A DNA stretch of 64,000 nt, from contig JACCQO010000003.1 in assembly GCA_015709205.1 (NCBI GenBank), positions 62,001-126,000 of the forward strand, in the 5' to 3' direction. A program made the translations under genes and the position numbers. Each line of letters begins with the position of its first letter. The stretch's first letter is position 1. Positions 14,168-27,515 of this stretch are shown here, piece after piece. The DNA is from Desulfovibrionaceae bacterium. GTDB lineage: Bacteria > Desulfobacterota > Desulfovibrionia > Desulfovibrionales > Desulfovibrionaceae. A model generated the notes under the pieces. The model was not told where the DNA came from and did no database searches. It saw only the letters and a list, made by a program, of their open reading frames with translations.

Positions 14168-15271
14168 TCAGTCGCCGAGGAAGTGGGAATAGGCGGGAAA
14201 GCCGATGGTCGCGTACATGGCGCGGATCGGGTCGTACTCCGCGTCCGAGACCCAGGGCACGAAGCACACGTCGCGGTACTTGCCGTTGCCCTCGCCCCGG
14301 AGCAGCGCGCCCTTGAGCTCGGCCGCGTGGTCCAGGAAGGCGCGACGGACCTCCGAGACCACGCCGCCGTTGACGTGCGGCGCGGCCACGAGCACGTCGC
14401 CGGGCAAGTCCGGTCCGCGCGCCAGCACACGCATGTCCTTGGCACCGCAGGGGGGCCAGTCGGCGGCTATCTTTCCGGCCCCCGAAACGGACGTCGGCCC
14501 GGCACCGGCCGGGTCCGGCCCCTGCGCGGCGGCGGCGAGCAGCTCATGGAAGTGGGTGTCGGACATGCACGCCGCGTCCACGTCGCCGCGCACCAGGGCG
14601 CGCCAGGCCTTGGCCAGGGTGGTGTGCACCAGGCGCACGTCGCGCAGCGGGTCCAGCCCCAGGGCGGCCATGAGCCCCATGGGCGCGAGGTGCGCCGAGG
14701 TGGAGCCCACGCTGCCCAGGGCCACCTTGCGCCCTGCCAGGCCGCGCACGTCGGCGATGCCCGAATCGCGGCGCGTGGCGATGACCGTGAAATAGTCCAC
14801 GCGGTGCAGCCCGGCCACGGGCCCGGCGTCCGTGAGCTTGCGCAGGACCACGTATTCCGCGGGCCCCGTGATCGCCAGGTCCACGGCCTTGGCGCGCATC
14901 AGGCCCACGGCGTCGGTGCGCGAGCGCACGGGCACCAGGACCACCTCGCGGTCCAGCAGATCGCCCAGCTCGCGCGCAAAGGGCCCGAAGTCGCGGACCA
15001 GTTCCTCGCGACCGACCAGGTCCGTGACCGTGAAGCGCAGGGGCGCGCCGCCCAGGGCGGGCACGCGCCAGAGCAGCAGCGTGGCGCACACGGCCAGCGC
15101 GGCCGCGGCGGCCAGCCCGCGACAGGCCGCCAGCCGGGTCGCGGCCAGCGCCACGGCCCAGTCCACCCGGGCGCGCCCACGTTCCGACAGGGCGCGCAGC
15201 CGGTCCGAAAACGTCCTTGGCCGCCGCCCAGCCGGGCGCGGCCGCGTCGCCGTTCCCGCGTTGCGGCTCAT
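14168..15271 (-). CDS. PhnD-like phosphate/phosphonate-type binding protein, membrane-anchored
   Basis: Periplasmic binding protein of the PhnD/SsuA family (367 residues). Family features include TDLVGREELVRDFGPFARELGD, LAITGPAEYVVLRK and GSVGSTSAHLAPMGLMAALG. The N-terminus is unusual: a basic cytoplasmic stretch of about 50 residues precedes one hydrophobic segment (about 52-72) without an obvious cleavage site, so the domain is probably tethered to the inner membrane. The start ATG overlaps the stop of the upstream kinase (ATGA), which implies translational coupling. No ABC permease or ATPase gene lies in the operon. I infer a sensory role, presenting a ligand to the kinase, rather than transport; the ligand is unknown. 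Confidence 0.82.
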   Translation of the reverse strand: MSRNAGTATRPRPAGRRPRTFSDRLRALSERGRARVDWAVALAATRLAACRGLAAAAALAVCATLLLWRVPALGGAPLRFTVTDLVGREELVRDFGPFARELGDLLDREVVLVPVRSRTDAVGLMRAKAVDLAITGPAEYVVLRKLTDAGPVAGLHRVDYFTVIATRRDSGIADVRGLAGRKVALGSVGSTSAHLAPMGLMAALGLDPLRDVRLVHTTLAKAWRALVRGDVDAACMSDTHFHELLAAAAQGPDPAGAGPTSVSGAGKIAADWPPCGAKDMRVLARGPDLPGDVLVAAPHVNGGVVSEVRRAFLDHAAELKGALLRGEGNGKYRDVCFVPWVSDAEYDPIRAMYATIGFPAYSHFLGD

Positions 15272-17577
15272 GCCCCGGCCTCCCGTTCCCGCTCGGCCGC
15301 GAGCGCCCAGGTGCCGTTTCCGGCCTTGCGGCCCCTTGCGCCGGACGGCGCTCCCGGCGCAGCGGTTCCGGCGGGTTCGGCGGCCGCCGGTTCCGCCGCC
15401 ACGGTGGATCCCGCCTCCGCCTCAGGCCCGATCGCGGCGGCGGACCCGTCCGTTCCGGCCTTGGGCGTTCCCGGCTCTTCGGTGTCCGGCGCCTCCGGCG
15501 CGTGAACGGGCTCGGAAACGGTTCCGGCGATGGGCGCGGGCACGGGCAGGCGGAAGAGGAAGGCGCTGCCCAGCCCGGGCTCGGACTCGGCCCGGATGCC
15601 GCCGCCGTAGTGCTCCACGATCTCGCGGCAGATGGCCAACCCCAGCCCCGTGCCCTGGGGCTTGTCCGTGAGCGAGGCGCGGCGGCGGCTCTGGCGGAAC
15701 TTGTCGAAGACGTGCTCCAGGTCCTCGCCCGGAATGCCCGCGCCCGTGTCCTCCACGCGCACGAAGATCTCGCCGCGCTGCTCCCAGGCCGAGAGCGCGA
15801 CCATGCCGCGCTCCGTGAACTTGGCCGCATTGCCCAGCAGATTGGCCAGGACCTGCTCCAGCCGGTCGGGGTCGATGCGCAGCCGGGGCAGGTCCGGGGC
15901 GATGGCGACCTCGAAGCGCACCCCGGGGCTGTTCAGGAAGAGCCCCTGCGCGGCGCGCGCGCCCTTGAGCAGCAGGGCCGAGGTATCCACGTCCGTGTCG
16001 TTCCATTCCATCCGTCCGGCCTCGATGCGCGAGAGGTCGAGCACGTCGTCGATGAGCCGCGTGAGGCGCTCGCCCTCGTCCAGGATCACGCCCAGGTTGG
16101 ACTGCACGCGCTCCAGCCGCGCGTCCAGGATTTCGTCTTCGGCCGTCAGGGGGCCGAAGTGGCGCTCCAGGTCGCGCGAAACCAGCCGGGCGAAGCCGCG
16201 CACCGAGGTCAGCGGGGTGCGCAGCTCGTGGGAAACCGAGGAGAGGAATTCGCTCTTGAGCTCGTCGAGCTGGCGCAACTGGAGGTTGGCCGCCTCCAGC
16301 TCGCGCGCCTTGCGGTCCAGGTCCGCGGTCCGCTCGGCCACGTTGGCCTCCAGCCGCCGGTTCAGCTCGGCCAGCTCGCCCTCGGCCCGGGCGCGCTCGG
16401 CGATCTCGGCGCTGAGGGCCTGGTTGGCGCGGCGCAGCGCCCCGGTGGCCCGCCCCACCCGCCGCCGCAGCAGCCAGTTCCAGACCATCACCCCGGCGAC
16501 CAGCCCGCACAGGGCCAGCGCCGCCAGGCCGATGCCCTTCCACGGCAGCCCGGCCAGGGGCAGCGCGGCCAGGGGCCGTCCGCGCCAGTCGTTCTGGGAG
16601 CGCTGCAGCAGCGAGCCCGGGACCTCGCCCAGGTCGCGGTCCAGGACCGCGAGCAGCGCGGCCGAACGCGCGGGCGCGCCCACGCGCAGCTGGAGCACGG
16701 CCACGGGCGCCTCGGCCACGTAGAACTCGCCGCCCAGGTCCATGCGCCCGAACTGGGCGCTGAGGTTGGCCTCGGCCCCGACCACGGCGCGCACCTCGCC
16801 CAGAAAGGCGTCCTCGGCCAGGGCGGCCGCATCGTCGTATTCCACCACGCGCACGCCGAAGGGCGCGTGGCGGCGCAGCCAGATTCCGGCCGGGCCGTTG
16901 CGCAGCACGCCCACGCGGAACCCGTCCAGTTCGGCCAGGCGGGTGATGTTGGGCACGTCGGTGCGCACGAACAGGCGCAGGGGCAACGCGGCGTAGGCGC
17001 GGCCCCAGCGCAGCCGCGCCCCCCGCGCGGCCGCGGCCGCGGCCCCCGAGACGGAGGGGGAGGCGGCGACGGAAGAAGAGGAAGAGGAGGAAGAGGAGGA
17101 GGAAGCGGCGCCGCGGCCGGACGGCGGCGCAGGCAGGGCCGGGGCGGAGGCCGCCGGGCCCGCCGAACCCGCCTGGCCCGCCGGAGCCGGAACGTCAGTC
17201 AGAGCCGGGACGTCCGCCGGGGCCGGGCCACCCGTCAGGGACGGGACGTCCGTCGGAGCCGGAACGTCCGCCGGGTCGCGGGCGTCCACCAGCACGTCGG
17301 CCCGGCCCGTGCGCACCGAGCCCAGGGCCTGGGCGCGCGGCACCACCAACAGTTCGCAGGCCACGCCGCGCTGCGCGGCCCACTGCCGCCAGAAGCGCAC
17401 GGAAATGCCCTCGGCCTGGCCGTCCTCGCCGAGGTAGGCGTGCGGCCGCAGGTCGTCGGGCAGGGCCACGACCAGCCGGTCCGGCAGGCCGGGCAACGAC
17501 GGGCGCGCCGGCGCGACCCACGAGGGCAGCGCAAAAAAACCCACCAGGGCCACGGCAAGGAGAAGACGAAGTCGCAT
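15268..17577 (-). CDS. Sensor histidine kinase with periplasmic family-3 solute-binding domain
   Basis: Membrane kinase of 769 residues. The ATG at 17577 starts a Sec-type leader (MRLRLLLAVALVGFFALPSW). A periplasmic SBP_bac_3-like domain follows, but after VDARDP it is interrupted by about 75 low-complexity residues: degenerate PADVPAPTDVP repeats, then a run of 11 serines. The domain resumes at about RWGRAYAALPLRLFV. After it come a TM helix (about 350-375), a coiled coil, HisKA with His450 in VSHELRTPLTSV, and an HATPase (NLLGNAAKF, DTGAGIPGED, GTGLGL). The C-terminal 70 residues are again Ala/Glu/Pro-rich. It is co-transcribed with the PhnD-like gene. No response regulator is adjacent. 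Pho-box-like repeats lie about 95 bases upstream. Confidence 0.88.
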   Translation of the reverse strand: MRLRLLLAVALVGFFALPSWVAPARPSLPGLPDRLVVALPDDLRPHAYLGEDGQAEGISVRFWRQWAAQRGVACELLVVPRAQALGSVRTGRADVLVDARDPADVPAPTDVPSLTGGPAPADVPALTDVPAPAGQAGSAGPAASAPALPAPPSGRGAASSSSSSSSSSSVAASPSVSGAAAAAARGARLRWGRAYAALPLRLFVRTDVPNITRLAELDGFRVGVLRNGPAGIWLRRHAPFGVRVVEYDDAAALAEDAFLGEVRAVVGAEANLSAQFGRMDLGGEFYVAEAPVAVLQLRVGAPARSAALLAVLDRDLGEVPGSLLQRSQNDWRGRPLAALPLAGLPWKGIGLAALALCGLVAGVMVWNWLLRRRVGRATGALRRANQALSAEIAERARAEGELAELNRRLEANVAERTADLDRKARELEAANLQLRQLDELKSEFLSSVSHELRTPLTSVRGFARLVSRDLERHFGPLTAEDEILDARLERVQSNLGVILDEGERLTRLIDDVLDLSRIEAGRMEWNDTDVDTSALLLKGARAAQGLFLNSPGVRFEVAIAPDLPRLRIDPDRLEQVLANLLGNAAKFTERGMVALSAWEQRGEIFVRVEDTGAGIPGEDLEHVFDKFRQSRRRASLTDKPQGTGLGLAICREIVEHYGGGIRAESEPGLGSAFLFRLPVPAPIAGTVSEPVHAPEAPDTEEPGTPKAGTDGSAAAIGPEAEAGSTVAAEPAAAEPAGTAAPGAPSGARGRKAGNGTWALAAEREREAGA
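17071..17106 (-). repeat. Poly-serine coding tract
   Basis: A purine-only GGAAGA/GGA run on the plus strand encodes 11 consecutive serines (TCC/TCT codons) on the minus strand, inside the kinase sensor domain. It is a simple-sequence tract prone to length change. Confidence 0.85.
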
Positions 17578-17671
17578 CAAGGTATCCGCCACCAACGGCC
17601 CCGCGGGGCCGCCCCGAAAAATCCGCGGCGCGGTCAGCACCGCGCCGCGCCCCAGCTAAATCCGCGTTGCG

Positions 17672-19475: not shown

Positions 19476-19867
19476 ATGATCCTGGAGACCTACACCCGCA
19501 TCTTCGTGAAGGCCGACGCCCTCGAACGCACCATCGCGGCGTACGTGAAGCCGCTCTCCGGCGACGTCAGCCCGCGCTTCGCCTCTCCCGAGGCCGGGCT
19601 GGAGCTCGCCGCGGTCTCCTCGCCCCGGCTCTCGGTACTCATCGTGGCCGGCCTGCCGCAGCTGCGCGCACCGTTCGAGGCCACGCGGCCGACCGTGCGC
19701 GTGGACCGGCTGGAGGAGCACCTGGAACCGCTGCGCAGCGCCGGGGCCGGGCAGCTCGAACCCGTCCGGGCCACCCCGGTGGGCCGCAAGACGCGCTTCC
19801 GCCCGCGGACGGCCTGATCGTCGAATACGTGGACCACGCCGCGCCCCAAGGGCCCCGGGACGTCTGA
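19476..19867 (+). pseudogene. VOC (glyoxalase/bleomycin-resistance) family protein, frameshifted near its C-terminus
   Basis: The intact frame gives 113 residues starting MILETYTRIFVKADALERTI, with PEAGLELAAVSS and TPVGRKTRF as in small VOC-fold proteins of about 130 residues. In such proteins the last strand reads like RHPDGLVVEYVDH. Here that ending (DGLIVEYVDHAAPQ) is encoded from 19808 to the TGA at 19865-19867, but in another frame. One base appears to be missing at about 19800-19807 (CGCCCGCGGAC). As written the protein stops at 19817 after RPRTA and loses a strand bearing a usual metal-ligand region. Either the gene has recently decayed or the sequence carries a one-base error. The substrate is unknown. 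Confidence 0.72.
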
Positions 19868-20067
19868 AGCCGTCCTCCCACCGCCGGGCGAGCCGGCTTC
19901 GGGCAGCCAGCCGCAAGATGCTCCGGCCGCGTTTATCCTTCTCCCCGGGTAGGGAAAATGCGCCGACCGGGCCGTTTTTCCCGGAACGGTGAACAGCTTT
20001 CTTACAAACCGACAAGAAATCCGTCGCCCCTCCCCGGCCCGGGCCGCGCAACGCCGCACCTCCATGC

Positions 20068-20082
20068 GAATTTGTCAAATTC
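20068..20082 (+). promoter_or_regulatory. Perfect palindrome, candidate activator site
   Basis: GAATTTGTCAAATTC has 7-base perfect arms around a single T. It is centred about 46 bases upstream of the sigma-54 -24 element, a position where enhancer-binding activators often bind. Confidence 0.5.
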
Positions 20083-20120: not shown

Positions 20121-20135
20121 TGGCACGGCCCTTGC
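20121..20135 (+). promoter_or_regulatory. Sigma-54 (-24/-12) promoter for the universal stress protein
   Basis: TGGCACGGCCCTTGC matches the TGGCACG-N4-TTGC consensus perfectly. Transcription would start near 20146, about 70 bases before the gene. The same 15 bases recur at 24833. Confidence 0.9.
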
Positions 20136-20140
20136 CTAGG

Positions 20141-20158
20141 ATTGATTAGTCAATCAAT
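20141..20158 (+). promoter_or_regulatory. Inverted repeat over the predicted transcription start
   Basis: ATTGATT-AGTC-AATCAAT has perfect 7-base arms starting 5 bases after the -12 element. It could be a repressor operator or the 5' end hairpin of the mRNA. Confidence 0.45.
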
Positions 20159-20216
20159 GTCCGGGACCTCCCGGACGACAAGCGGGCCAGGCAACTCACG
20201 CAAGGAGGACAAGAAC

Positions 20217-21161
20217 ATGGAAACCGCCACTTCGCAGCTACGGGAACCGATCGCGCCCCAGGTGCGGCCAGAAACCGAGCGCAGCATTCTCATCACCGTG
20301 GGCGAGGAGCCGCAGCACCTCTATGCTGCGCGCTTCGCCGCCCACTTCTTCCAGGAAGTGCCCAACGTACGTTTCACCCTGCTGGGCGTCCTGCCCCCGG
20401 AGGAGACCGAGATCCGGGGATTCTACCGCACCGTGGTCGGCACCGGACAGATGGACGAGGACGTGCGCAAGCTGCACACGGACCGCCGCCGCGAGGCCCT
20501 GGAAACCGCACGGCGCCTGCTCATGAGCGGCGGCGCGGGCAAGGGCGACATCAACGTGCGCCTGCGCACCCAGCGCACCTCCATGGTCCTGGACATCATC
20601 GACGAGGCCGCGCTCGGCGGCTACGACGCCTGCGCCCTGGGCAACCGCGGCCGCACCTGGCTCGACGACATGCTCGAAGGCACGGAGAACATCACCAAGG
20701 AAATCATCGAGCGGTCCTGCGGCATCCCCCTGTGGCTGTGCCGCACCCCGGCCCCCAGCGGCCGCGACGTGCTGCTCTGCGTGGACGGGAGCGAACCCGC
20801 CAACCGCATGGCCCGCCACGTGGGCCGCATCCTGGGCTCCTCGGGCGCGCACCGCGTGACCATCCTGCGCGTGCGCCGCGAGGGCGCGGCCAACCCCGAG
20901 GAACCGGAAATCACGTTCGCCGCGGCGCGCGCCCTGCTCGAGGCCGAGGGCGTGCCCCCGCACACCATCACCACGCGGGTGGTGGAGGACAACGATCCCG
21001 CCCGCGCGATCCTCAACGAGGCCGAATACGGCCGATTCGCAGTGGTCGCTGCGGGACGCGGCGGCGCGGGAGGAGGATTGCTGAGAAGGCTCTTCATGGG
21101 CTCCGTCTCCCACGCCCTGTACAACCGCCTCACCGACGCGGCCCTCTGGGTCTGCTGCTGA
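20217..21161 (+). CDS. Tandem universal stress protein (UspA family)
   Basis: Cytoplasmic stress protein of 314 residues built from two Usp-like halves (about 20-165 and 178-312). The first half carries the AHFFQEVPNVRFTLLGVLPPEE region and the second LLCVDGSEPANRMARHVGRIL and VVAAGRGGAGGGLLRRLFMGSV. The latter resembles the G-2x-G-9x-G-(S/T) nucleotide-binding motif of ATP-binding Usp proteins, so the second half probably binds ATP. A strong AAGGAGGA site 7 bases before the ATG at 20217 decides the start over an ATG at 20142. Expression should depend on sigma-54 and therefore on an NtrC-type activator, most simply the one encoded at 23148. Confidence 0.88.
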   Translation: METATSQLREPIAPQVRPETERSILITVGEEPQHLYAARFAAHFFQEVPNVRFTLLGVLPPEETEIRGFYRTVVGTGQMDEDVRKLHTDRRREALETARRLLMSGGAGKGDINVRLRTQRTSMVLDIIDEAALGGYDACALGNRGRTWLDDMLEGTENITKEIIERSCGIPLWLCRTPAPSGRDVLLCVDGSEPANRMARHVGRILGSSGAHRVTILRVRREGAANPEEPEITFAAARALLEAEGVPPHTITTRVVEDNDPARAILNEAEYGRFAVVAAGRGGAGGGLLRRLFMGSVSHALYNRLTDAALWVCC

Positions 21162-21666
21162 GGCAAGCCGCGACGCGGCGGGGGCGGGCCGAAGCAATGG
21201 GCCCCGGCCGCAGGCGGCGAAGATAGCATCGTTGCGCCGTTCGACGAACGGCGCACGAAAGAGGCCCGGACACGGCGGCCGCCCCGTGCGAGCAACCCGT
21301 CCCCATGCGCCCGGCCCGCGCAGGCGCGGGGCGGCCGCCACCTCAAGCCGCCCGGCGGTCCCCCCGTCGGGCGGCCCTTTCCGGGCCCTCTGGCGCTCGC
21401 CGCGCCGGACGCGTCCTCAGCGCCCGGCGCGGCGAACGTTCTCGGTCCGGCCGCACCCGCCCGGGCGCGGCAGCATCGCCTCCCCCCGCCGGAGCCCTCC
21501 GCACCGGACTCGCGCCAACGGGGCGTCGCGCCTTCCGGCACGCGGGCGGGCGACGCAACCGGCCGCGCCGCTTCCCTTTCCACCGTCTCTGGCGTATACA
21601 CGGACCCGGAACCCAACCAGACGGGCAGGGGATCGCCGCACGCCCCCGGCGCCCGCATCGAGCGCC
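21162..21666. other. 505-base intergenic region before the sensor kinase
   Basis: No convincing gene is seen. It contains a 23-base palindrome (21233-21255) and a 13-base inverted repeat with arms at 21274-21286 and 21327-21339. No sigma-54 element or clear sigma-70 promoter was found. Confidence 0.5.
21233..21255. repeat. 23-base perfect palindrome
   Basis: TGCGCCGTTCG and CGAACGGCGCA flank a central A. It has no T-run on either side, so it is either a weak terminator for the stress protein gene or a protein-binding site. Confidence 0.5.
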
Positions 21667-23163
21667 ATGTTCAAGCCCTTAAGCCTGCGCCTCAAGGTCG
21701 CCCTGCTGCTGGCCGCCCTGCTCGCCGTCTCCACCCTCGGCGGCCTGGGCACCTTGTGGTTCATCAACCGCACCCAGTCCACCTACACCGAGATCATGGA
21801 CCGGGACATCACCGCCCTGGCCGCGGCGCACGGGCTCATGAGCGCCCTGGCCTCGCAGAAGGGCTACGTCACCGACTATCTCTCCACCGACGATCCCGAG
21901 TGGCTCGACCGCATGAACGAGCACCACCAGGCCTTCGAGCACTGGATCTCCCGCGCGCGCCAGTCCGCCCTGGAGGAGGGCGCGCACACCGTGCTCAACC
22001 GCATCGAGGCCGAGTACCTGCGCCTGGCCTTCGACCGAGGCCGCATCGTGGAGCTGCACCAACAGAGCCGCGAACAGGAGAGCGCGGCCGTGCACGTGGA
22101 GTACCGGGACCGATTCAAAAAAATCTACGAGCTCTGCCAGGACTACAAACGGCTGCACGAACGTTCCATCGCGGCCAGCCGCGAGGAGTACGACACCCAG
22201 ACGCGCACCGTGGCCGCCCTGGCCTGGGTGGCCCTGTCCCTGAGCGCGGGCGCGTGCGTGCTCCTGGCCTGGATCCTGTTCCGCAACATCCTCGGCCCCA
22301 TCCGCCGCCTGGCCCTGAGCCCCGGCGGCCAGGCCCCGGGACCGGCCGACGCCCCGGGCTTTCCCGACGAGGTCGAGGCCCTGGCCTCCAAGGTGCGCGG
22401 GCTCATCGGCGACGTGGAGCAGGCCCAGGGCAAGCTCGACGCCAGCCGCCAGGTCCTGGCCCAGTCCGAGAAGATGGCCACCGTGGGCAAGCTGGCAGCG
22501 GGCGTGGCCCACTCCATCCGCAACCCGCTGACCTCCGTGAAGATGCGCCTGTTCTCCCTGGAGCGTTCCCTGGAGCTGGACGTTGCGCAGAAGGAGGACT
22601 TCGCCGTGGTCGCCGAGGAAATCGGGCACATCGACACCATCGTGCACAACTTCCTGGAATTCGCGCGCCGCCCCAAGCTCAAGTTCCGGCGCATGGACCC
22701 GGCCGAGGTCGTGGACATGACCCTGCTGCTGCTCAACCAACGGTTGGAATCCGGCGGGATCAAGGTGCGCTTCGAACGGCCCGAGCGCGCGCCGCACCTG
22801 GCCATCGACGCCGAGCAGCTCAAGGAGGCCTTCGCCAACCTGCTGCTCAACGCCCTGGAGGTCATGCCCGGCGGCGGGCGCATCGACATCTCCATGGAGG
22901 AGGGCGTGCTCGAGCCCCTGGGCCGCGCCGTGGTCTTCCGCTTCTCGGACAACGGCCCCGGCATCGCCCCGGACATCCAGGAGAAGATCTTCGAGCCCTT
23001 CTTCAGCACCAAGGAGGAGGGGTCCGGCCTCGGGCTGTCCATCGTGCGCCGCATCGTGGAGGGCCACGGCGGCTGGCTGCACGTGCATTCCAAGGAGGGC
23101 GACGGCGCGACCTTCGTCATCGCCCTGCCCTGCGAAAGGAGGGAGACGTGGCTTCGATCCTGA
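21667..23163 (+). CDS. Membrane sensor histidine kinase (NtrB-like), partner of the sigma-54 activator
   Basis: A 498-residue kinase with TM1 (about 9-31), a helical periplasmic domain of about 155 residues (four-helix-bundle type, beginning NRTQSTYTEIMDRD), TM2 (about 190-212), a HAMP-like linker, HisKA and HATPase. His282 lies in GVAHSIRNPLTSVKMRL, an AHSIRNPL variant typical of kinases paired with NtrC-family regulators. ATP-binding boxes are NLLLNALEVMPGGG, DNGPGIAPD and GSGLGLSIV. The regulator gene starts 16 bases before this gene ends, so they form a coupled pair. Start choice: the ATG at 21667 begins directly at MFKPLSLRLKVALLLAALL, but no good ribosome site is visible. Confidence 0.92.
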   Translation: MFKPLSLRLKVALLLAALLAVSTLGGLGTLWFINRTQSTYTEIMDRDITALAAAHGLMSALASQKGYVTDYLSTDDPEWLDRMNEHHQAFEHWISRARQSALEEGAHTVLNRIEAEYLRLAFDRGRIVELHQQSREQESAAVHVEYRDRFKKIYELCQDYKRLHERSIAASREEYDTQTRTVAALAWVALSLSAGACVLLAWILFRNILGPIRRLALSPGGQAPGPADAPGFPDEVEALASKVRGLIGDVEQAQGKLDASRQVLAQSEKMATVGKLAAGVAHSIRNPLTSVKMRLFSLERSLELDVAQKEDFAVVAEEIGHIDTIVHNFLEFARRPKLKFRRMDPAEVVDMTLLLLNQRLESGGIKVRFERPERAPHLAIDAEQLKEAFANLLLNALEVMPGGGRIDISMEEGVLEPLGRAVVFRFSDNGPGIAPDIQEKIFEPFFSTKEEGSGLGLSIVRRIVEGHGGWLHVHSKEGDGATFVIALPCERRETWLRS

Positions 23164-24563
23164 TCGTGGACGACGACGCGCAGCTGCGCAAAAGCTTCCA
23201 GCGCGTGCTGGCGGCCGAGGGGTTCGCCACGCGCACCGCGTCCTCGGGCGAGGACGGCATCAAGGAGGTGGCCGCCGAGCGCCCGGACCTCGTGGTCATG
23301 GACGTGCGCCTGCCGGGCATGAACGGGCTGGAGGCCTTCAAGGCCATGCGCGAACGCGAGCCCGCCCTGCCGGTGATCATCATGACCGCCTACGGCACCA
23401 CGGACACGGCCATCGAGGCCACCAAGATGGGCGCCTTCGACTACGTGCTCAAGCCCTTCGACGTGCCCGCGGTGCTCGCGCTCATCGACAAGGCCCTGAG
23501 CACCGCCGTGCGCGAGCAGCGCACTCCCGAGGCCGCCGGGCACCCGCAGCCCGACGTGCTGCTCGGCCGCAGCCAGGCCATGCAGGACCTCTGCAAGGCC
23601 ATCGGCCGCGCCGCGCCCACGGACGCCACGATCCTCATCCAGGGCGAATCCGGCACGGGCAAGGAGCTCATCGCCCGCACCCTGCACCGCCACAGCCTGC
23701 GCGCCGAGCGGCCCTTCCAGGTCATCAACTGCGTGGCCATTCCCGAAACCCTGCTGGAGAGCGAGCTCTTCGGCTACGAAAAGGGCGCCTTCACCGGCGC
23801 CTCCAACCGCCGCGTGGGCAAGATCGAGCAGGCCAACCGCGGCACCGTGTTCCTGGACGAGATCGGGGACATGCCCCTGGGCATCCAGGCCAAGCTCCTG
23901 CGCCTGCTCCAGGAGCGCCAGATCGAACGCCTCGGCGGGCACCAGACCATCGCGGTGGACGTGCGCATCCTGGCCGCCACCAACCGCGACCTGGAGGCCG
24001 CCGTGGCCGCCGGGCACTTCCGCGAGGACCTCTACTACCGCCTCAAGGTCGTGACCCTGTCCCTGCCACCCCTGCGCGAGCGCAGCGAGGACGTGCCCAT
24101 CCTGGCGCGCCACTTCCTGGAGCGCTTCGCCGCCGAACTCGGCGTGCCCAACCCGGGCCTGACCGTGGCCGCCGAACGGCTGCTGATCGAACACGACTGG
24201 CCCGGCAACGTGCGCGAGCTGGCCAACGCCGTGCACAAGGGGCTGATCTTCAGTCGGGGCGGGCCGCTGGAGGCCGAGGACCTGGCCGAAACCCTGGCCC
24301 ACTCCGGCGCCTCGGACGCGCCGGGCGCGGCCGACGCCGAGGAGGTCATGCGCCGCTGGGTGCGCGCGCGGCTCAAGTCCGCGGACTCGGACAACCTCTT
24401 CGAGTCCATGGCCGACCGTTTCGGGGCCCTGATCGTGGCCGAGGCCCTGGCCATGACCGGCGGCAACCGCACGCGCGCGGCCAAGCTCCTGGGCCTGTCG
24501 CGCCCCACCCTGCTCGCGCGCATCGACAAGTACGGCCTCAAGGTGACCACCTCGGTGGCCTGA
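23148..24563 (+). CDS. Sigma-54-dependent response regulator (NtrC family activator)
   Basis: A 471-residue enhancer-binding activator. The N-terminal receiver has acceptor Asp52 in VVMDVRLPGMNG. The AAA+ domain carries Walker A GESGTGKE at 166-173, the sigma-54 contact loop GAFTGA at 213-218 and Walker B GTVFLDEIGD. The C-terminal Fis-type helix-turn-helix reads TRAAKLLGLSRPTLLARIDKYGL. Translation starts at GTG (23148) with AGGAGGGAG just upstream, inside the end of the kinase gene. All motifs needed for activity are intact. The nearest sigma-54 promoters lie on both sides, at 20121 and 24833, which makes the stress protein and the receiver/TauE genes its likely targets. Confidence 0.95.
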   Translation: MASILIVDDDAQLRKSFQRVLAAEGFATRTASSGEDGIKEVAAERPDLVVMDVRLPGMNGLEAFKAMREREPALPVIIMTAYGTTDTAIEATKMGAFDYVLKPFDVPAVLALIDKALSTAVREQRTPEAAGHPQPDVLLGRSQAMQDLCKAIGRAAPTDATILIQGESGTGKELIARTLHRHSLRAERPFQVINCVAIPETLLESELFGYEKGAFTGASNRRVGKIEQANRGTVFLDEIGDMPLGIQAKLLRLLQERQIERLGGHQTIAVDVRILAATNRDLEAAVAAGHFREDLYYRLKVVTLSLPPLRERSEDVPILARHFLERFAAELGVPNPGLTVAAERLLIEHDWPGNVRELANAVHKGLIFSRGGPLEAEDLAETLAHSGASDAPGAADAEEVMRRWVRARLKSADSDNLFESMADRFGALIVAEALAMTGGNRTRAAKLLGLSRPTLLARIDKYGLKVTTSVA

Positions 24564-24875
24564 TCCGCGCCCCGGCCGGCCCGGGCCGGCGTCTGCCCGG
24601 TTGCCGGCCGGTTGCCGGGCGGTCCCGCAGGGCCGCTTCGACGCGCCGCCGTTGCGGCCGTTTTCCGGCCGTCCGCCCCCGCCTCCCCACGCGCGCCGTG
24701 CAGCGCGCGGCTTTGCCAGACCGTAAAAAATCCTGACAGCCCGTCCCGCGCCCGTTCCGGGCGCCGCCGCGCCGCGCCTGCGCAACACATCCTAATCACG
24801 GCATTTTTCGCAAAGCCCCCTGTGCGCCGTTCTGGCACGGCCCTTGCCATTGTCCGGGCAAGCCCGGAGCACGCC
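24564..24875. other. Intergenic region with the receiver/tauE promoter
   Basis: No gene is seen. Besides the sigma-54 element at 24833, an 11-base tandem duplication (CCGGTTGCCGG) lies at 24597-24618. TAAAAAATCCT at 24724 resembles TAAAAATTCCT at 20094 before the other sigma-54 promoter, but at a different distance. Confidence 0.5.
24833..24847 (+). promoter_or_regulatory. Sigma-54 (-24/-12) promoter for the receiver-tauE operon
   Basis: TGGCACGGCCCTTGC is identical to the element at 20121. The start codon of the receiver gene follows 28 bases after it, so the leader is very short. Confidence 0.9.
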
Positions 24876-25292
24876 ATGTCGCCAACCCCACGTATTCTGA
24901 TCACCGACCGCAATCCCAACGTGCGGGAGCTGCTCAGGCGCGAATTCGCCAAGCACGGGGTCCGTGCGGACACGGCCCGGGACGGGCGCGAAGTCTGCGC
25001 CCGGCTCTGCTCGCCCGAGCCGCCGCACCTGCTGGTGCTCGACCCGGAGATTCCGCACGCCGGGAGCATGGGCGAATGGGCCCGCCGCCGCGGAGGCGCA
25101 GGCCCCGTGGCCGTGGTCCTGAACACCTTCACCCCGGACGCCCCCGGCCCCCTGGCCGGCCTGGCCGTGGCCGTGGTGGAGAAGGACCCGGACACCGACC
25201 TGCTCTGGGAGCGGGTCAGGGCCATTCTGGCGCAACGCGGCGCCGGGACGGGGGCCGGGGCCGAACCAAAGGCGCAAGCCGCTCCGGGCTAG
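24876..25292 (+). CDS. Stand-alone receiver-domain protein
   Basis: A 138-residue CheY-like protein with no output domain. It begins RILITDRNPNVRELLRREF. The acidic pocket is reduced to one Asp (TDRN) where typical receivers have two acidic residues. The phospho-acceptor position is the Asp of LVLDPEIPHAG, the Thr/Ser position lies in VVLNTFTP, and the conserved Lys in VVEKDP. The last 15 residues are Ala/Gly-rich. It is the first gene after the second sigma-54 promoter and precedes tauE by 160 bases, so it may be a phosphate sink or an adaptor in the same circuit. The degenerate pocket leaves phosphorylation uncertain. Confidence 0.78.
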   Translation: MSPTPRILITDRNPNVRELLRREFAKHGVRADTARDGREVCARLCSPEPPHLLVLDPEIPHAGSMGEWARRRGGAGPVAVVLNTFTPDAPGPLAGLAVAVVEKDPDTDLLWERVRAILAQRGAGTGAGAEPKAQAAPG

Positions 25293-25327
25293 CCGGGGTG
25301 AAACGCATTTCAGGCCATCGGGGCCGA

Positions 25328-25381
25328 CTGCCGCGGGCGGCGCAGCGCCCGGCGGGGCGCGGGGAGCGCCGCCCGCGGCAG
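25328..25381 (+). repeat. Long perfect hairpin between receiver gene and tauE
   Basis: CTGCCGCGGGCGGCGC and GCGCCGCCCGCGGCAG form a perfect 16-bp stem with a 22-base loop. There is no T-run. It could reduce read-through or stabilise the downstream mRNA. Confidence 0.7.
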
Positions 25382-25452
25382 GGGAAGATCGCGACGCGGC
25401 GCACCGGGGACAGCCCCGCGCCGTCCACCACGAACCAAGAGGAAAGAGGGAG

Positions 25453-26715
25453 ATGACGAAACACCTGCGCGCTTTCTACGACATGCTCATGCAGGCCTCG
25501 CGGGAACACGCCAAGTGGGACTACGAGGCCTCCATGACCATCATGCGGAGCAAGAAACGGCTCCTCATCCTGCTCTGTCTGGCCGTTCCGGCCCTGATCT
25601 TCGCCGTGGCCCTGGCCGGGGACACCCTGCCCGCCATGCTCGGCGGCAAGAAGGCCTACACCCCGGCCTTCTACACCCCGGCCATCTTCGCCGTGTCCAT
25701 CCTCATCGGCCTGGCCGCCGGACTGATCACCGGGTGCATCGGCGCGGGCGGCGGCTTCATCATCACCCCGGCGCTGATGAGCGCGGGCATCAAGGGCATC
25801 CTGGCCGTGGGCACGGACCTGTTCCACATCTTCGCCAAGGCGATCATGGGCACGGCCGTGCACAAGAAGCTGGGCAACGTCTCCGTGCCGCTGGCCGTGG
25901 CCTTCCTCGGCGGCTCGATCATCGGCGTGCTCGGCGGCGGCGTGATCAACCGCGCCCTCTACGAGATCAACCCGGTGCTCTCGGACATGTTCATCAGCCT
26001 GGTCTACGTGGTCCTGCTCGGCTTCCTCGGCATCTACTCGATGATCGACTTCCTCAAGCTGCGCAAGTCCGACACGGGCGGCGACGCCCACGGCTCGGCC
26101 CCCAGCGGCAAGCAGGGGTTGCCCACCAAGCTGCAGTCCATGAACATCCCGCCGATGATCACCTTCGACACCGACCTGGTGCCCGGCGGCAAGCGCATCT
26201 CCGGCGTGTTCGTGGCCCTGTGCGGCTCGGTGGTCGGCTTCACCGCGGCGATCATGGGCGTGGGCGGCGGCTTCCTGACCTTCCCGATGTTCGTCTACAT
26301 CCTCGGCGTGAGCTCCTTCACCACCGTGGGCACGGACATCCTGCAGATCATCTTCACCGCCGGTTTCGCGGCCATCAGCCAGTACGCCATCTACGGGTTC
26401 ATCTTCTACACCCTGGCCATGGGCATGCTCCTCGGCTCGCTCTTCGGCATCCAGATCGGCGCGCTGACCACCCGCGTGGTCAAGGGCATCTACATCCGCG
26501 GCTTCTACGCCACGGCCATCCTGGCCGGTTTCGTCAACCGCCTCTTCGCCCTGCCGGGCAAGCTGGGCGAAATGAAGATCATCAGCATCGACCCCGGGCT
26601 GTCCGGCACCCTCACGCAGATGGGCAACTGGGCCTTCTTCGTGGTCGTGGGCATCTTCGGCGTGTGGGTCATCGGCATGTTCTTCAGCAACATCGGCAAG
26701 CTGAAGGAGGCGTAA
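25453..26715 (+). CDS. TauE/SafE family anion (sulfite/sulfonate-type) exporter
   Basis: Inner-membrane protein of 420 residues with about eight to nine helices after a 35-residue cytoplasmic N-terminus. The two repeated TauE halves are visible: GLAAGLITGCIGAGGGFIITPALMSAGI (shown in part: GAGGGFIITPAL) and GFTAAIMGVGGGFLTFPMFV, the latter with the GVGGGxxxxP signature. The loop between them (about 205-240) is hydrophilic. Known TauE/SafE members export sulfite, sulfoacetate or related anions. GAAAGAGGGAG precedes the ATG. It overlaps functionally with the next gene, which starts one base after its stop. Dependence on the sigma-54 promoter at 24833 is inferred from the absence of a closer promoter. 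Confidence 0.88.
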   Translation: MTKHLRAFYDMLMQASREHAKWDYEASMTIMRSKKRLLILLCLAVPALIFAVALAGDTLPAMLGGKKAYTPAFYTPAIFAVSILIGLAAGLITGCIGAGGGFIITPALMSAGIKGILAVGTDLFHIFAKAIMGTAVHKKLGNVSVPLAVAFLGGSIIGVLGGGVINRALYEINPVLSDMFISLVYVVLLGFLGIYSMIDFLKLRKSDTGGDAHGSAPSGKQGLPTKLQSMNIPPMITFDTDLVPGGKRISGVFVALCGSVVGFTAAIMGVGGGFLTFPMFVYILGVSSFTTVGTDILQIIFTAGFAAISQYAIYGFIFYTLAMGMLLGSLFGIQIGALTTRVVKGIYIRGFYATAILAGFVNRLFALPGKLGEMKIISIDPGLSGTLTQMGNWAFFVVVGIFGVWVIGMFFSNIGKLKEA

Positions 26716-26716
26716 C

Positions 26717-27424
26717 ATGGCTGCGAGCAAGAAAGAATTCTTCAAGGGCGCGACCATGGCGGTGATCTTCTTCATCGTCCTGGCCTACATGTTCAGCCCC
26801 TCCTTCGGCGACGGCCGCAACGCCTTCAGCGCGTCGGACGACCTGTTCAACTCCATCTCCAAGGGCTCGACCTACTACATCCCGTCCCTGCGCGAGCAGG
26901 TGCAGCCCCTGGGCGGCAAGGTCTTCAAGGCCACGGTCGAGCTCAAGAGCGACAAGCTGGCCGGCAACGCCGAGCACATCTTCGCCACGGCCGGGGCCGA
27001 GGCCAAGGCCGCGGGCCAGGGCTGCGAGGTCTCCGGCGACCTGGGCGCGGTGCTCACCCGCGTGCTCGACGACTCCGACGCCATGTTCCACAACAAGGGC
27101 GACGCGCTCAGCTCGGCCTACGGCATCGAGGAGCGCGAGGCCATGTACACCTGGTGGCGGGCCCTGACCTCCCTGGAGACCGAGCTCAAGCACCAGAAGG
27201 AGTTCAAGGCCGCCAAGGTCGTCTCCGAGGTCATCAAGCGCGGAGTCGAGGTGGGCTACAACTACTACGGCATCGTGCCCCAGAGCGCGGCCGGCGACGC
27301 GGGCGTGCTGACCTTCGCCCTGATCTTCTACGTGGTCTACACCCTGTGGTGGGGCTACTCGATCTTCTTCATGGCCGAGGGCATGGGCCTGGCCATGAAG
27401 GGCGGGCACAAGAAGGAAACCTAG
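26717..27424 (+). CDS. Conserved membrane protein of unknown function, partner of TauE
   Basis: I do not recognise a named family. The 235-residue protein has one hydrophobic helix near the N-terminus (about 13-30, ATMAVIFFIVLAYMF), a soluble periplasmic-type domain of about 165 residues and a second helix near the C-terminus (about 195-222, TFALIFYVVYTLWWGYSIFF). It ends with a Lys/Gly-rich tail. The soluble part contains one cysteine (QGCEVSGDLG). The start follows the tauE stop by a single base, with AAGGAGG inside the end of tauE, so the two are translationally linked. A subunit or regulator of the exporter is the simplest reading. Confidence 0.75.
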   Translation: MAASKKEFFKGATMAVIFFIVLAYMFSPSFGDGRNAFSASDDLFNSISKGSTYYIPSLREQVQPLGGKVFKATVELKSDKLAGNAEHIFATAGAEAKAAGQGCEVSGDLGAVLTRVLDDSDAMFHNKGDALSSAYGIEEREAMYTWWRALTSLETELKHQKEFKAAKVVSEVIKRGVEVGYNYYGIVPQSAAGDAGVLTFALIFYVVYTLWWGYSIFFMAEGMGLAMKGGHKKET

Positions 27425-27483
27425 GCCCTCGAAGGCGTGCGGCGCGGCCCGAACGGACCGCGGCGGCGCATCCCCCCATATGC

Positions 27484-27515
27484 GGCGGGGCCCCTCGGGG
27501 CCCCGCCGATCCTTT
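27484..27515 (+). terminator. Terminator after the tauE operon
   Basis: GGCGGGGCCCC and GGGGCCCCGCC form a stem with a TC loop followed by GATCCTTTT. It may also act on the converging minus-strand transcript. Confidence 0.65.

Follow-up and report, generated by a model that had tools for sequence, protein, structure and literature searches.

A predicted sigma-54 circuit joining a TauE-type permease operon and a universal stress protein gene in a Desulfovibrionaceae genome

The window analysed here is a 64-kb stretch (64,000 nucleotides) from a Desulfovibrionaceae bacterium (contig JACCQO010000003.1, positions 62,001 to 126,000). Within it, a sensor histidine kinase and an NtrC-type activator are encoded between two sigma-54 promoters, one ahead of a tandem universal stress protein gene and the other ahead of an operon for a stand-alone receiver, a TSUP/TauE permease and a partner membrane protein, here called MEM (Table 1). 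It is probable, judging from a site common to both promoters and its distribution among relatives, that this one activator controls both. The predicted circuit is real at the level of sequence, with stronger support than a first reading of the DNA could give. It is not settled which proteins move sulfur oxyanions through the membrane in sulfate reducers (PMC5840216), and a conserved regulator, its predicted binding site, a permease and its partner, with a predicted second target, make a poorly understood transporter system testable.

Two sigma-54 promoters and a shared upstream motif

An earlier note on this DNA had claimed that the 15-mer TGGCACGGCCCTTGC occurs at 20121 and again at 24833. 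Both copies are exact and on the + strand, and no further exact copy exists in the window. The gene contents it listed (universal stress protein, kinase, activator, receiver, TauE and membrane protein) were confirmed, as were the intact activator motifs, with GAFTGA, Walker A (GESGTGKE) and a Walker B-like VFLDEIGD all readable in P0007. Sites of the form TGGCACN5TTGC number 17 in the whole genome against 6 for a reversed control, and the two 15-mers are therefore good sigma-54 candidates; TGGCATN5TTGC sites number 15 against 0. A third exact copy of TGGCACGGCCCTTGC was found elsewhere in the genome (G000:C45:101633, locus L003), followed by isocitrate-lyase-superfamily-like and then solute-binding-like genes (names by eye). 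As this operon is unrelated, promoter identity is not specific to one regulon and is no proof of shared control. The identity of the promoters thus stands, whilst its use as an argument for one circuit is weakened.

Better evidence comes from an enhancer-like motif, TTTAC-N5-GTAAA-N5-CTGACA, in which an inverted repeat is followed by CTGACA. A weight matrix was built from the sites of 24 relatives, with the window excluded, and the window was scanned on both strands (127,926 positions). The top score, 35.4 bits, fell at 24723 ahead of the receiver-TauE promoter and the second, 17.9 bits, at 20011 ahead of the stress-protein promoter. The third position (14.1 bits) overlaps the 20011 site on the opposite strand and the next scores 3.2 bits. 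Both motifs lie exactly 110 bp from their own sigma-54 site. The stress-protein score was reached in 0/2000 shuffles of the 253 bp upstream (largest 17.6) and in 3/2000 shuffles of the AT-richer local 160 bp. At 95-125 bp, none of the genome's remaining 15 TGGCAC sites exceeds -4.3 bits, the third 15-mer copy having a best score of -4.3 bits. When a wider distance range was allowed, the best other TGGCAC site scored 9.4, and the 14 TGGCAT sites scored reached at most 1.9. A -24/-12 promoter with a conserved site at a fixed distance, as expected of a sigma-54 regulon, is thus found at both targets, more weakly at the stress-protein gene. The matrix scan of the window placed no motif ahead of the kinase-activator genes, so autoregulation through this motif is not predicted.

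In the proposed circuit, the kinase (21667) would respond to a cue and then phosphorylate the adjacent activator (23148), which would bind the inverted-repeat site 110 bp upstream of both promoters. Sigma-54 activators bound upstream loop to the sigma-54 polymerase. The bound activator would switch on the tandem universal stress protein as well as the operon of receiver, permease and MEM. TauE and MEM may act together as one transporter, and the stand-alone receiver may serve as a phosphate sink or as a link to the transporter.

Conservation of the motif and its activator

Sixty regions around MEM matches were drawn from 57 genomes of the order, picked to spread over genera. In many of these, tblastn recovered the kinase and activator genes first, then the sigma-54 site and the receiver, in a good number of cases another kinase with more receivers, and finally TauE followed by MEM. 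An activator orthologue (at least 57% identity) lies within 31/60 regions, and the gap after a near full-length orthologue holds the motif in 24 of 29 regions. The distance from motif to sigma-54 site is 108-112 bp in 20 of the 23 relatives measured and 88-101 bp in the other three. The conservation test that the earlier note set for its own refutation was therefore passed, as relatives keep both the promoter and the genes.

Moreover, the motif module and the activator orthologue occur together. Thirty of the 60 regions contain both, one the orthologue only (L059), nine the module only and 20 neither (Fisher's test, p = 4e-8). When the module-only genomes were searched whole, all nine were found to encode an activator orthologue elsewhere (59-67% identity). 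Among 17 genomes with neither a module nor a nearby orthologue, one has an orthologue (G083, 66%) and one a 50% relative (G027); in the other 15, no orthologue was found at E 1e-125, the best first-pass candidates being scored. The two groups differ significantly with G027 left out (Fisher's test, p = 5e-6). Second TauE-MEM copies in two orthologue-bearing genomes (L110, L112) have no module. This co-occurrence is the strongest evidence that the activator would read this motif and, with the equal spacing of the common motif, gives computational support to the claim of the earlier note that one activator drives both promoters.

The search was widened to 141 regions, made up of the window, the 60 regions of the order and 80 named loci. 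The module scored above threshold in 65/141 (window counted), comprising 39/60 of the order and 25/80 named loci, the latter including Desulfacinum, Desulfomonile, Desulfobacca and Desulfosarcina. By eye, the genes behind additional modules resemble those for permeases of the DASS type, proteins with CBS domains, another TSUP and receivers of the 'DRN' kind.

The universal stress protein as a regulon member

The stress protein is, on this sequence evidence, a predicted and occasional member of the regulon. Of the 30 loci returned for P0001, four have a sigma-54-like site a short way upstream of the gene, namely that of the window and those of its three closest relatives, from genus g6. In two of these relatives (L197, L198) reversed motif cores lie 92 and 172 bp before the sigma-54 site and take the top two scores in each locus. 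In the third (L199) the best reversed core lies at 184 bp and the 92-bp site is weak. The cores were matched in 0/1000 shuffles for each locus. In these three relatives the stress-protein gene is separate from the cluster: in genome G171 it lies (C1:2773821) some 450 kb from the cluster (C1:2306000-2324000), and in G143 and G076 the two are on different contigs. Stress-protein domains were found in the TauE region of 16/141 loci (E 1e-8, window counted), including the Nitrospirota loci L157 and L193, and a small stress-protein-like neighbour was seen by eye in Desulforamulus (L182).

The TauE-MEM pair and its possible cargo

MEM is present in 174/248 genomes of the order. It follows TauE in 79 of 80 loci chosen by TauE alone, the exception (L167) being a contig that ends soon after TauE. 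No match to MEM was found in Pfam or NCBIfam. The predicted structure (mean predicted local distance difference test, pLDDT, 90.8; predicted template modelling score, pTM, 0.77) consists of an alpha/beta domain with a long helix at either end (5-26 and 192-222), and a comparison with solved structures gave no clear match. Across 118 genomes of the phylum, all 31 MEM genomes also carry dsrA, 32 carry dsrA only and 55 neither (Fisher's test, p = 4e-11, a value inflated by kinship; dsrA counted above cut-off). This would tie the TauE-MEM pair indirectly to dissimilatory sulfite reduction. Because MEM was found only in genomes with a dissimilatory sulfite reductase, the candidate cargo is a small sulfur oxyanion (sulfite, thiosulfate or sulfate), an assignment to which we give somewhat less than an even chance; the sulfite reading of the circuit is plausible. 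More tentatively still, TauE-MEM may be an obligate two-protein sulfur-oxyanion transporter in many sulfate reducers with dsrA, often placed under a dedicated kinase-activator pair through a deeply conserved motif, to which lineages would add responders, such as the universal stress protein, by gaining the motif.

The source genome also contains three TSUP paralogues (31-37% identity) at C12:26095-26946, C15:8866-9801 and C67:112288-113127. Two of these each have a separate sigma-54 site some 500 bp upstream (C12:25572, C67:111784), and neither site carries this motif. Therefore, parallel and separately controlled TSUP circuits are likely in this genome. In the longer operons of relatives, MEM is followed by a protein resembling phosphoenolpyruvate (PEP)-binding proteins, which has 17 matches in the source genome on contigs C7, C12, C15, C34, C67 and C92, several of them clustered on C12.

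Comparison with known systems

The earlier note knew of no described system of this composition, which is too strong, given the sigma-54-dependent transporter operons (PMC4641369) and nitrate cluster phenotypes (PMC4001038) on record. Desulfovibrio vulgaris is reported to have 37 activators and nine sigma-54-dependent operons with TSUP or PSE transporters of unknown substrate (PMC4641369). In D. vulgaris Hildenborough, as in the window, NtrC-type activators stand beside sigma-54 operons with TSUP permeases; examples are DVU0110 and DVUA0057, acting on DVU0132-0133, and DVU2956, acting on DVU2957-2964 (PMC4641369). Unlike the activator of the window, DVU2956 is a single-component regulator that has lost or never had an N-terminal domain, and Table 1 of that paper lists no stress-protein target for the activators of these operons. 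The likeness is one of gene content, D. vulgaris being absent from the 80 TauE loci returned. A conserved TSUP clade includes DVU2958 (PMC5840216, repeated in PMC7531388), and sulfite import has been suggested for an archaeal TauE homologue (PMC3949148).

The nitrate cluster DVU0251-0245/Dde_0597-0605 comprises a TauE permease, a small conserved partner, a kinase, a receiver and a PEP/pyruvate-binding protein (PMC4001038). The longer operons of relatives resemble it, with a receiver, a kinase, receivers, TauE, MEM and a PEP-binding-looking protein of 860-880 aa. The cluster differs from the window in that it also encodes a phosphatase and a PtxB-like protein; no activator appears in its table, and both TauE (963 bp) and the partner (588 bp) are shorter there (PMC4001038). 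With no PtxB, PEP-binding or phosphatase gene in the window operon, the latter does not represent the gene set of the Desulfovibrio nitrate cluster. Most mutants of that cluster are nitrate resistant, pooled and single mutants of DVU0250 partly disagree and DVU0245 has no effect; mild sickness on thiosulfate is cited as unpublished data (PMC4001038).

Two further systems share parts of the arrangement. In the three-component stress system DVU3303-3305 of D. vulgaris, a two-component regulator targets, among others, genes with UspA domains, but its response regulator carries a Lon protease domain; beyond these it targets potassium uptake and dicarboxylate/pyruvate formate-lyase genes, with no TauE in the available parts of the paper (PMC3333781). 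NmpRSTU of Myxococcus xanthus has an NtrC-like regulator and universal stress proteins are mentioned with it, but its regulon is described as one of oxygen utilisation (PMC11841059). No description of TauE, a universal stress protein and a sigma-54 activator in one system was found in the open-licence literature, as judged from listings. Sigma-54-controlled TSUP operons are thus of a known kind, whilst the pairing of regulator and motif and the MEM partner were not found described.

Alternative explanations

Several observations weigh against the stress-protein gene as a second target. The right half of its site is degenerate, and the 19-bp core alone scores 6.8-7.2 there, with the promoters of L233 (9.5) and L234 (7.9) higher. 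A profile search of the source genome returned the TauE site (E 9e-4) and an unrelated place (E 0.44), not the stress-protein site. A forward module scan of the stress-protein loci of the three relatives found none; the sites there are in reverse orientation, at distances of 92 and 172-184 bp. Under the full matrix the best position of L197 falls inside the stress-protein gene. Stress proteins were found near TauE in 0/60 regions of the order (E 1e-8). The tie between stress protein and circuit drawn in the earlier note is supported by the shared motif at the window promoter but is not constant. The activator could drive the receiver-TauE operon only, with the stress-protein promoter under another sigma-54 activator and the 20011 site a chance occurrence in AT-rich DNA. 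The degenerate site with its unremarkable core, its absence from the profile search, the few local shuffles that reach its score and the many activator-like matches in the genome are all in keeping with this. We nevertheless regard it as unlikely, as 20011 ranks second in the window by the full matrix at an identical spacing and motif cores precede the stress-protein gene in three relatives. Far less probable again is an absence of any shared control, whereby two good sigma-54 promoters would agree in five spacer bases by chance; the third exact 15-mer does precede an unrelated operon, but the motif lies 110 bp before both window promoters and not before that copy.

With control of both promoters by one activator preferred, the nature of the signal and cargo is evenly balanced. 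There is an even chance that the circuit holds but the transporter, instead of exporting sulfite, takes up another anion (such as thiosulfate or sulfate, with nitrate an accidental passenger), or that envelope or redox stress, and not a sulfur anion, is the cue for the kinase. Transposon mutants of the TauE cluster are nitrate resistant, for which a leaky thiosulfate transporter has been proposed (PMC4001038), and the TSUP substrates of sulfate reducers have been termed unpredictable (PMC5840216). Against this, the nitrate cluster has a different gene order from receiver to transporter, and it is likened to the window by description, not sequence.

Features of the locus and neighbouring genes

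The kinase has two hydrophobic segments by eye. The activator matches the AAA+ (PF00158, 243.8 bits), receiver (PF00072, 111.7 bits) and helix-turn-helix (HTH; PF02954, 36.6 bits) profiles. Across 12 relatives the stand-alone receiver mostly keeps its 'DRN', its phospho-acceptor-like Asp and its Lys (by eye).

Table 1. Coordinates of the predicted circuit in the window.
Feature	Position	Strand	Remarks
Activator site (predicted, degenerate), stress-protein promoter	19997..20034	+	motif G at 20011, 110 bp to sigma-54 site
Sigma-54 promoter, stress-protein gene	20121..20135	+	exact 15-mer
Tandem universal stress protein P0001, 314 aa	20217..21161	+	PF00582 66.7 bits, two stretches
Sensor histidine kinase P0006, 498 aa	21667..23163	+	HisKA 44.7 bits, HATPase_c 97.1 bits
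NtrC-type activator P0007, 471 aa, GTG start	23148..24563	+	receiver, AAA+ with GAFTGA, Fis-type HTH
Activator site (predicted), receiver-TauE promoter	24709..24746	+	motif G at 24723, 110 bp to sigma-54 site
Sigma-54 promoter, receiver-TauE-MEM operon	24833..24847	+	exact 15-mer
Stand-alone divergent receiver P0002, 138 aa	24876..25292	+	PF00072 22.8 bits, cut-off of 30.2 not reached
TSUP/TauE permease P0003, 420 aa	25453..26715	+	PF01925 121 bits, cut-off 32.6
MEM, partner membrane protein P0004, 235 aa	26717..27424	+	beside TauE; predicted-structure model
Terminator-like hairpin 3' of operon	27483..27508	+	weak alone: 5 such sites in stretch, 5.3 expected (shuffles)

A perfect 16-bp inverted repeat with a 22-nt spacer and no T run lies between the receiver and TauE genes (25328-25381) and is perhaps an element of RNA stability or attenuation. 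The palindrome GAATTTG-T-CAAATTC was noticed by eye at 20068-20082, 39 bp ahead of the stress-protein sigma-54 site, and a second regulator of this gene is possible.

Directly upstream of the stress protein, P0005 (17984-19381, +) encodes an MBL-fold with two rhodanese domains. In 2/60 regions (L067, L071) a 65% relative is found some 3 kb away from the kinase and activator genes, a placement that fits a sulfur theme. By eye, a short open reading frame at 19476-19817 (+) has a glyoxalase/VOC-type look and ends early, with an open stretch after it in a different frame. Further upstream (14168-17640, -), a phosphonate-binding-like protein adjoins a sensor kinase that bears a periplasmic-binding-like domain, also judged by eye.

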